Shown: positions 6,512 through 9,234 of the stretch, piece by piece
Numbering within the stretch: the stretch's first letter is position 1
Layout: every line of letters begins with the position of its first letter
Assembly: GCF_947501385.1 (NCBI RefSeq)
Contig: NZ_CANMVP010000011.1
Span: 62,001 to 126,000 of the forward strand
Direction: 5' to 3'
DNA: 64,000 bases
Origin: an uncultured Polaribacter sp.
GTDB taxonomy: Bacteria; Bacteroidota; Bacteroidia; Flavobacteriales; Flavobacteriaceae
Program-made: the position numbers and the translations under genes
The notes under the pieces: model-generated
What the model saw: only the letters and a program-made list of their open reading frames with translations
The model's database searches: none
Told to the model about the DNA's origin: nothing

Positions 6512-7462
6512 ATGAAAAAAATTCTAGTCCTTCTTTTTTTCTCCTCTTCTATTTTAGCCTTTTCTCAAAAGAAATATTCTAAAGAAATAAGTTTTATTAC
6601 TGAAAATGATTTGTATACGTCTACCTATGACGATAGGTATTATACAAACGGCATGTTTCTCTCTTTTAAATATTTATCAAAAGAGAAAAAAAACAACTTA
6701 GAAAAAAAGGTTTTAGCCTGGGAAATTGGTCACAGAATGTATACTCCTGCAGTTCCTTTAGTAAAATCTGTAGAAGAACATGATAGATCTTTTGCGGGAT
6801 ATCTTTATGGAAGTTTTGGTATCAATCGAATTTATAAAAAAGACAAAAGCTTTCATACAACAATTCAACTTGGGGTATTAGGCTCAAATGCATACGCAAA
6901 GGAATTGCAAGGTTTTATTCATAACATATATGGTTTTAGAAAAACCGTAGGTTGGAAACATCAGATAAAAGATGCTTTTGCAATTAATTTTAATACAGCC
7001 TATAATGCCTTTTTATTAAAAGACAGTTCGAATCACTTTGATATTTTTTGGACAAACTCAGGGAAAATTGGTACTGTTTTTACAGACCTGTCAACAGGGT
7101 TGTTAGCCAGAATAGGTCTAAAGCCACTACAATCTTTAGCTAACTCCATTGCTTTCAACACTAATCTTAATGATAAAAATACTTCTTATTTTAGAGAAAC
7201 AGAATCTTTTTTCTACATAAAACCATCCTTAAGGTATGTTTTATATGATGCTACTTTTCAAGGAAGTTTTTTAAATAAAGGCAGTGAAGTTACCAATGAA
7301 TTAATTCCATTAGTTTTTAACTTAGAAATAGGATTTAGATTTACGGCAAACAGATTTAATTTCGGATACGTTTATAACTATAACTCAAATAAAGCAAAAA
7401 ATTTAAGATTCGATAACGGTCATACATATGGCTCTGTTATTTTGAATTATTTGTTGAAATAA
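6512..7462 (+). CDS. LpxR-family (DUF2219-like) outer-membrane protein
   Basis: Signal peptide from ATG 6512 (MKKILVLLFFSSSILAFSQ), then ISFITENDLYTSTYDDRYYTNGMFLSF typical of lipid A deacylase LpxR family. Confidence 0.7.
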   Translation: MKKILVLLFFSSSILAFSQKKYSKEISFITENDLYTSTYDDRYYTNGMFLSFKYLSKEKKNNLEKKVLAWEIGHRMYTPAVPLVKSVEEHDRSFAGYLYGSFGINRIYKKDKSFHTTIQLGVLGSNAYAKELQGFIHNIYGFRKTVGWKHQIKDAFAINFNTAYNAFLLKDSSNHFDIFWTNSGKIGTVFTDLSTGLLARIGLKPLQSLANSIAFNTNLNDKNTSYFRETESFFYIKPSLRYVLYDATFQGSFLNKGSEVTNELIPLVFNLEIGFRFTANRFNFGYVYNYNSNKAKNLRFDNGHTYGSVILNYLLK

Positions 7463-7489
7463 ATATTTTATAAAAGAAATCTAAAGGAG

Positions 7490-7735
7490 TCAGAGCCATA
7501 GAGGTATTTCGCTGGTTTCATACCCAGTCAAGCTGGGCACATGCTTTGACCTGAAAAAAGGTCAAAAACCATCCCGACAACATTCGGGACTATATTTAGA
7601 TTCCCGTTACCCAATCAAGTTGGGCACATGCTTCACGGGAATGACAGTTTCAGCGGAAACCCCGAAGTAGAGCCTCGAGGAATTCTTTTCGATTAAAATA
7701 GACTTCGGCGAGCTCAGTCTGACATTTGTTATTTT
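7490..7735. repeat. Mosaic intergenic repeat region with several hairpins
   Basis: CCCAGTCAAGCTGGGCACATGCTT (7523-7546) and CCCAATCAAGTTGGGCACATGCTT (7610-7633); ATTCCCGT/ACGGGAAT outer stem (7600-7642); TTTGACC/GGTCAAA and CCCGA/TCGGG stems; CCGAAGT...ACTTCGG. Confidence 0.75.
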
Positions 7736-7783
7736 TTATTAAAATTGGTTTTTTGATAGGACACCTTGAGATCTTGAAAACTT

Positions 7784-7811
7784 GAAACCTGAAACCTGAA
7801 ACCTGAAACCT
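7784..7811. repeat. Heptanucleotide tandem repeat GAAACCT x4
   Basis: Four exact consecutive GAAACCT units read directly, reaching into the stop codon of the downstream minus-strand helicase gene. Confidence 0.9.
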
Positions 7812-9234
7812 ATTCTATAAAAAAATCATCTTTAAAACCAATCAAATAGAGTTTTTCTTGTGCTCTGGTAATTGCTGTATACAGCCATCTAAAATATTCT
7901 TTAGAAACACCATCTGGTAAATAAGGTTGTTCTACAAAAACGGTTTTCCATTGTCCTCCTTGAGATTTATGACAGGTCATTGCATAAGAAAACTTTACTT
8001 GCAAGGCATTGAAATACACATTCTTTTTGATTGCTAAAAACTGTTTGAATTTCGATTTTTCATGTGCATAATCTTCCTTTACTGCTTGGTATAGTTTATT
8101 AGATTCTTCATAGGTTAAAGAAGGTGTTTCACTTGTTAATGTATCTAATAATAAAACGGTTTCAAAAGGATGCATTTCTGGGTAATCGATCATTCTAATT
8201 TCTACTTCAGCAAACTTAAAACCGTACAATTCTTTGATAGAAAAAATCTTTAAGACTTCGCAAATATCTCCATTTGCAATAAAACCTGCTTTCGAAGATT
8301 CTGGCAACCAAAAATAATTATTCTTAACTATCATGATATAATCTCCTGCAGAGATTTCATTTTCCTGACCTCTAATATTAAATCTTATTTGCTGATTGTA
8401 TTGGTTTGCACGTTTGTTAGAGCGCACAATAAAAGCAGTATCTTCTACGCCATTACTTTCGTAAGCGGTTACAATAGCATCTTCAATATCATAACCATCT
8501 TCTAACCTTTTGATATCTAGAAAACCAACATCAAACTGAAATTTATCACCTTTATTTTTTAATAGCAGTCTTAAATAAGTCGCATTTGCTAAAATACCTG
8601 AATTTTCATGCTGACGCATTACTTCATCTAACTCAATTTCGGTAACTTGTTTATGGTATTCATAGGTTAATGTATCTTCTTCTAAAGCGGGTGAAACATC
8701 TAATTTAACTGGTGGAAGTTGCGCTGTATCACCAATAAAAATCAACTTACAATTTACGCCAGAATATACATAAGAAATCAAATCATCTAGCAAAGAACTA
8801 GTATCAAAAAATTTCTGATTTTGTTTGCTATCTGGAATCATAGAAGCCTCATCTACAATAAAAATAGTGTTTGTATGCTTATTGGGTTGCAAAACAAAAT
8901 CTACAGAACCATTGGTTTGTTTTTTCGGAAAGTAGATTTTTTTATGAATCGTAAAAGCTGGTTTTTTAGAATACACAGCAATTACTTTTGCAGCTCTACC
9001 TGTTGGTGCTAATAAAACCGCTTTTTTACCCGCAGTCCATAAAGAATTTACAAAAGCACCAATGGTGGTTGTTTTACCAGTACCCGCGTATCCCTTTAAC
9101 AGAAATAAAGCATCTTTATCTTCATTAAAAATAAACTCACTTAGCAGTTGTAAGAGTTTGCTTTGTTTTGTTGTAGGTTGATATGGAAATTTCTTTAACA
9201 ACTCTTTATTAAAATCTACTGGTTTTTCTATCAT
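7810..9234 (-). CDS. ATP-dependent RecD/PIF1-like DNA helicase
   Basis: Walker A LLKGYAGTGKTTTIGAF, IFIVDEASM, IFIGDTAQLPPV, C-terminal YAMTCHKSQGGQW...LYTAITRAQEKLYLIG. Confidence 0.9.
   Translation of the reverse strand: MIEKPVDFNKELLKKFPYQPTTKQSKLLQLLSEFIFNEDKDALFLLKGYAGTGKTTTIGAFVNSLWTAGKKAVLLAPTGRAAKVIAVYSKKPAFTIHKKIYFPKKQTNGSVDFVLQPNKHTNTIFIVDEASMIPDSKQNQKFFDTSSLLDDLISYVYSGVNCKLIFIGDTAQLPPVKLDVSPALEEDTLTYEYHKQVTEIELDEVMRQHENSGILANATYLRLLLKNKGDKFQFDVGFLDIKRLEDGYDIEDAIVTAYESNGVEDTAFIVRSNKRANQYNQQIRFNIRGQENEISAGDYIMIVKNNYFWLPESSKAGFIANGDICEVLKIFSIKELYGFKFAEVEIRMIDYPEMHPFETVLLLDTLTSETPSLTYEESNKLYQAVKEDYAHEKSKFKQFLAIKKNVYFNALQVKFSYAMTCHKSQGGQWKTVFVEQPYLPDGVSKEYFRWLYTAITRAQEKLYLIGFKDDFFIE

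Follow-up and report, generated by a model that had tools for sequence, protein, structure and literature searches.

A 23-nt hairpin unit nested in a decayed IS200/IS605-family element of an uncultured Polaribacter sp. and its occurrence at hairpin tips in other bacteria

The window analysed here (64,000 nt of a contig of an uncultured Polaribacter sp.) contains a segment rich in hairpins, flanked by an LpxR-like gene that ends at 7462 and by a helicase gene at 7810-9234 in convergent orientation. A first-pass annotation had recorded two hairpin copies in this segment, CCCAGTCAAGCTGGGCACATGCTT (7523-7546) and CCCAATCAAGTTGGGCACATGCTT (7610-7633), whose two differences turn G-C into A-T at the inner pair and so keep the stem, the second copy lying within a further stem, ATTCCCGT/ACGGGAAT (7600-7607/7635-7642). 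All of this is indeed in place, as are the neighbouring stems TTTGACC/GGTCAAA (7545-7551/7560-7566) and CCCGA/TCGGG, the latter found as TCCCGA/TCGGGA (7572-7577/7584-7589). When up to three mismatches are allowed, the hairpin pattern has two matches in the window versus none in 100 shuffles. As single-stranded DNA the segment beats 200 of 200 shuffles on either strand (z of -4.5 on the minus and -3.4 on the plus strand), and the centroid of the fold contains the hairpins listed earlier, the nested one included. A further proposed pair, CCGAAGT/ACTTCGG (7662-7668/7702-7708), is real as sequence; it is not counted as part of the structured array, because it bridges the degraded end hairpin of the element described below and a different neighbouring repeat.

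What the first-pass annotation did not see is the nature of the 210-bp segment as a whole. Judged by its sequence, the stretch at 7486-7698 (minus strand, in transposon orientation) is a decayed non-autonomous IS200/IS605-family element (MITE), since its ends match those of intact elements encoding a Y1 TnpA in congeners. The right-end (3′) region, ATACCTCTATGGCTCTGACTCC (7486-7509, minus strand), is recognised from the alignment of the copies and is diverged outside 7486, and the left end (5′), TTTTAATCGAAAAGAATTCCTCGAGGCTCTACTTCGGGG (7660-7698, minus strand), matches the left end of intact IS200-type elements, with its hairpin partly broken in the window copy. Between them, the TTTGACC/GGTCAAA hairpin (7545-7566), evident from sequence and fold, belongs to the body and occurs in most copies, and the TCCCGA/TCGGGA hairpin (7572-7589) is a variable part that is missing from several. 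A BLAST search with the window segment finds about ten long copies in the same genome (75-91% identity) and many partial ones; none of those checked lies inside an ORF, several lie between convergent genes, and the neighbouring genes vary between copies. In transposon orientation the element starts with TTTAATCGAAAAGAATTCCTCGAGGCTCTGCCTCGGGG, finishes with ATACCTCTATGGCTCTGCCTCGAGGATAGTTGG and spans about 170-240 bp, the TTTAA at the left end being common to all copies. Parts of the segment are matched in 30 of 148 Polaribacter genomes, with long copies in G064 and shorter ones in G107.

An intact Y1 transposase gene with matching ends on both sides is present in four genomes (G064, G147, G044 and G012) and in one Chitinophagales genome, the left type, TTTAATCGA(A/T)AGAATTCCCCGAGGCTCTGCCTCGGG, preceding the gene and the right type, ATACCCCGATGGCTCTGCCTCGGGGTAGTTCATT, following it; both ends of the MITE copies are thereby common to autonomous elements (compared with L298-L301 and L303). 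The encoded TnpA is an IS200/IS605 Y1 HUH enzyme (PF01797, 113 bits; NF033573, 121.6 bits; PDB matches to IS608 and related TnpA). The subterminal end hairpins of the 213-bp segment and of the intact elements match in identical order and orientation, whereas the body of the segment holds unrelated hairpins and nested units. The intact elements encode a Y1 TnpA; no cognate one was found in the genome under study, the best match having 27% identity. Therefore, with no close copy of that transposase in their own genome, the MITEs are probably stranded. Two further repeats lie beside the element: a second dispersed repeat, AGACTTCGGCGAGCTCAGTCTGACATTTGTTA (7699-7740), directly adjoins it and has similar pieces elsewhere in the genome and in many Polaribacter genomes, and at 7778-7811 the motif AAACCTG is repeated in tandem about 5 times, a short array that resembles stretches elsewhere in the genome.

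The hairpin present twice within the MITE is a 23-nt unit, ACYSARTCAAGYTSRGCACADGC (hereafter unit A). It has a 5-bp stem; its TCAAG loop and its unpaired tail, CACADGC, are both conserved. The left copy, ACCCAGTCAAGCTGGGCACATGC (7522-7544, plus strand), occupies the site GGTTTCAT^TTTGACC, which is empty in L024 and in the G107 copies L098 and L099. The right copy, ACCCAATCAAGTTGGGCACATGC (7609-7631, plus strand), is a 23-nt insertion into a REP-like loop, GTT^TTC, a site that also exists empty or filled with another hairpin (unit B, below). Such empty sites show directly what had earlier been put as one element inserted in another.

The host of the right copy is a CGTC-type (TGTC-tagged) REP-like hairpin (7597-7646, minus strand; stem 7600-7607/7635-7642), whose empty form, ATTCCCGTTTTCACGGGAAT, occurs here and in many congeners and reads TGTC-ATTCCCGT-GAAA-ACGGGAAT-CTA on the minus strand. 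Its stem covaries in 19 relatives (at one pair, for instance, 7 sequences have U-A in place of C-G). CGTC-tagged REPs form a class in five phyla without a dedicated transposase (Di Nocera et al. 2013, PMC3733652). The tag (CGTC, TGTC or CCTC), the stem (8-9 bp) and the loop (4-5 nt) of that class agree with the TGTC tag, the 8-bp stem starting with A-T and, in the empty form only, the 4-nt loop (GAAA/TTTC) seen here, a tag and lengths that suit the CGTC-1 REPs (PMC3733652), and as in the class no transposase borders the hairpin. Its tail reads CTA, that of CGTC REPs being mostly CCA, and it differs in the separate 23-nt unit that opens its loop; REPs inserted within palindromes have been reported in three species (PMC3733652).

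In the MITE, unit A sits exactly in the 4-nt loop of this hairpin (ATTCCCGTT^TTCACGGGAAT). Across the genome the loop, CCCGTT^TTCACGGG, is empty three times, carries ACCCAATCAAGTTGRGCACATGC three times, and five times carries a 19-nt hairpin unrelated to unit A, CCTGCTTGCCGCAGGCAGG, or close variants of it, the flanks remaining unchanged. Deletion is an unlikely origin of the empty sites, since the loop is commonly empty, both within the genus and in the CGTC families described before. Unit B is a hairpin of 12-20 nt of the form CCTGC...GCAGG that uses this same loop and another site in the MITE (L056, L057 and L060-L062 in this genome; L095-L097 in G064), and short CCTGC-type hairpins are found in G064 at a third site, GGTA^TTTCGC.

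When unit A was removed in silico, an empty partner was found for 79 of 128 filled contexts, exactly 23 nt being implied in 48 of these 79; control positions elsewhere had partners in 14-25 of about 130 cases, and off-register cuts at unit A in 24-43. In Methylophaga and Polaribacter the difference between empty and filled sites is 23 nt, located in TTTT at the tip of a hairpin, and no target duplication was seen in comparisons of filled with empty sites. Among the matches listed, the unit is mostly followed by TT (79 of 124), and a perfect host stem of at least 6 bp lies close to it in 29% of 104 distinct contexts, versus 3.4% with shuffled flanks, by what is a strict test. Examples of units at hairpin tips are GTCATCCCGGTATGCT(T-unit)TTAGCCGGGATC in Methylophaga, GTCATGCTGAA(unit)TTGATTCAGCATC at L212 and ATTCTACGA(unit)TTTGATCGTAGAAT at L238. 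At L212, L223 and L230 the loop that holds the unit belongs to CTGAACTTGATTCAG-type hairpins, in which the core is the unit A stem-loop in reverse complement; here an inverted copy is nested in its own relative, perhaps a hint at how unit A arose.

The stem itself covaries, and does so across phyla. The scan pattern left three stem pairs free, with both members varying independently, and among the 124 matches listed pair 4-14 is G-C in 71 and C-G in 53 and never broken, pair 6-12 is A-T in 81, G-C in 42 and G-T in 1, and pair 3-15 is less strict, 36 matches having the mismatch C-A. The TCAAG loop and the tail are conserved too, though the pattern fixed most of their positions. A covariation score of 0.47 (versus 0.21 for shuffled and at most 0.21 for slid alignments) was obtained on 26 distinct units; these were collected by hand, so that the unbiased pair counts carry more weight. 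The earlier suggestion that the hairpin structure is under selection is borne out. Unit A has a defined structure with a covarying stem, is inserted as 23 nt and is nested in other hairpins. A pseudoknot between loop and tail (TCAAG with CTTGA) fits L212, fails for the G064 and G028 variants and was dropped.

The two copies in the window are not the only ones in the genome, nor do relatives lack conservation of the structure. Unit A is present in 18 of 168 Polaribacter genomes and, in a sample of 396 genomes from across the phylum, in 9 as the exact pattern, and a scan of 84,980 species genomes found at least 115 stretches. Copy number reaches 26-27 per genome, with 26 in Methylophaga; the reversed pattern, used as a control, gave no match in any genome, and chance was rejected as the source on this ground. 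Carriers among the matches listed include Kordia, Tenacibaculum, Winogradskyella, Lutibacter, Chitinophagales and Balneolaceae, together with the gammaproteobacteria Methylophaga, Methyloprofundus and other MAGs, and single MAG matches in other groups. All named isolates listed are Bacteroidota, and all listed matches outside Bacteroidota are in MAGs. Many marine bacteria besides this one have unit A, and it appears to occur in other phyla as well: the agreement of several independent Methylophaga and Methyloprofundus MAGs with each other argues against simple contamination, and the matches in the remaining groups, with one MAG each, are weak.

Tips of one repeat family behave somewhat differently from the sites above. 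A noncoding GTGTCC repeat is found in arrays and as dispersed copies (L113 and L114 in G028; L115 and L116 in G064; L118 in G009; L117:2775-2826 in the genome under study), with a spacing of about 240-370 bp in the tightest arrays and a central hairpin, GTGTCCAGAC...TTTGGACAC. The tip of this hairpin is either unit A or a short alternative, i.e. it is replaced and not cleanly inserted. The tandem arrays of G028, G064 and G009 were also considered as integron attC sites; no matching core boxes were found by eye, none of the short tandem units holds a cassette-like gene, and the idea was dropped.

Small intergenic hairpin repeats of the REP/REPIN type are thought to be moved in trans, as single-stranded DNA, by Y1 enzymes (PMC3116915; PMC8266576), and the first-pass annotation had guessed at such a link with a RAYT. 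This guess found no support. A Y1 gene is present in 79 of 166 Polaribacter genomes and in 10 of the 18 that carry unit A, which shows no association between gene and unit. Unit A borders none of the roughly 66 RAYT/IS200 loci that were examined, the flanks of 36 (in this and other Polaribacter genomes) and 30 (in unit-rich genomes) showing other palindromes or none, which led us to reject a resident RAYT as the mover; nor was any gene found that unit A borders. Kordia algicida, a Methyloprofundus MAG and G028, which hold 15, 16 and 14 copies of the unit, gave no Y1 match. The unit begins with ACYS and lacks a GTAG tag. Given the unbordered Y1 loci and carriers in which no Y1 gene was found, such as Kordia algicida, unit A is not a RAYT-associated REP. 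The genome under study does hold Y1/RAYT-like genes with palindromes of their own nearby, e.g. CAAGGGGTTTAAACCCCTTG, CAATGGGTTTCAACCCATTG and AGACCTCACAGGTTTTAGAAACCTGTGAGGTCT; these loci (L046, L048, L049, L050 and L051) are ordinary REP-RAYT systems.

The reading of the segment as REP/MITE-like mobile DNA, proposed at the outset, has held up, and we assign a probability of about 0.6 to the following form of it: an IS200/IS605 relic contains a REP-like hairpin of the CGTC type together with two nested copies of unit A, a mobile hairpin that a structure-specific single-strand DNA enzyme would move in trans. The mechanistic part on its own is more tentative, and we put it at a little under an even chance. 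Unlike the structure and the insertions, the single-stranded route and the enzyme are what we infer. Specifically, a HUH/Y1-type or similar structure-specific enzyme may move unit A in its folded, single-stranded form, probably on the lagging strand, and the unit would enter the single-stranded tips of other hairpins, mostly adjoining TT, without target duplication. A single-strand enzyme of this kind acting in trans is favoured because Y1 genes are not associated with the unit, no Y1 locus examined is bordered by it and carriers without a Y1 match hold 14-16 copies; Y1/HUH would be the most natural class for it. Against this stand the lack of a bordering gene and of Y1 tracking, the replacement of tips in the GTGTCC arrays, a host stem of at least 6 bp in only 29% of contexts, and the restriction of the matches outside Bacteroidota to MAGs. 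That unit A is a spreading 23-nt DNA hairpin of several phyla, targeted to single-stranded hairpin tips and moved by a putative non-Y1 enzyme, is conceivable, and we hold it to be doubtful.

The main rival dispenses with a transposase altogether, and we judge it unlikely. Here replication template switching or gene conversion would swap tips from hairpin to hairpin: a polymerase that stalls at one of them would copy the tip of another and return via T-rich microhomology. This would account for carriers without any Y1 match, for the replaced tips of the GTGTCC arrays, for the frequent TT after the unit and for the missing target duplication, but it requires no conserved tail outside the stem and does not easily explain a unit with fixed ends and a modal length of 23 nt in hosts with unrelated arms. 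An ordinary REP mobilised by a RAYT that is present and was missed, or has been lost, would likewise be palindromic, intergenic and repeated, and the genome does have Y1 genes; with no GTAG tag, other palindromes at the borders of the 66 Y1 loci and no association across genomes, this is improbable. Least probable of all is that the hairpins are retained for a role in RNA, as bidirectional terminators or 3′ stabilisers of mRNA, even though several copies, that between the LpxR-like and helicase genes included, lie between convergent gene ends and two terminator-like matches were found versus 0.6 in shuffles. Rfam contains no family above its gathering score (a chance miRNA match of 21.6 bits was the only one), the neighbouring genes change from copy to copy, presence is patchy over the phylum and unit A sits in unrelated hosts. 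No positive evidence was obtained for a stabiliser or for the protein-binding site also suggested earlier, and the many unrelated host hairpins across phyla fit mobile DNA better.

Compared with known small repeats, unit A shares with REPs and REPINs (Bertels and Rainey 2011, PMC3116915; Corneloup et al. 2021, PMC8266576) that it is small, intergenic and repeated; it differs in having neither the GTAG motif nor the CGTC tag of the CGTC-tagged REPs, in bordering no RAYT and in not tracking RAYT presence. It also resembles a group of cyanobacterial repeats in behaviour. The small dispersed repeats (SDRs) that Elhai et al. are said to have described in 2008 are reportedly 21-27 nt long and are, to our knowledge, confined to cyanobacteria; we know of no enzyme for them. 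The modal 23-nt insertion of unit A falls within this size range, and its precise insertion without duplication agrees with theirs. SDRs are very small repeats that insert precisely at defined places and are often nested (PMC3116915; PMC4390886), all of which, along with the want of a known enzyme, is also true of unit A. The difference, in a comparison by description, is that unit A targets hairpin loops, whereas the target of SDR5 is HIP1 (PMC4390886).

A literature search by its sequence found no paper mentioning unit A. Small palindromes inside larger ones (PMC3733652) and very small mobile repeats in cyanobacteria were already known; new is one untagged 23-nt unit, common to distant bacteria and without a Y1 partner, that occupies the tips of numerous host hairpins and has exact empty sites. 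By what route REPs and other tiny palindromes spread is an open question, above all for families without a transposase such as the CGTC REPs. Unit A, whose ends are defined, whose empty sites are exact, whose targets are hairpin tips and whose stems covary, provides a concrete and testable substrate, and in genomes that have many copies but no Y1 gene the Y1 hypothesis can be told apart from other routes. The insertions suggest that the tip of a hairpin, which is what folded single-stranded DNA exposes, can act as a target for insertion.
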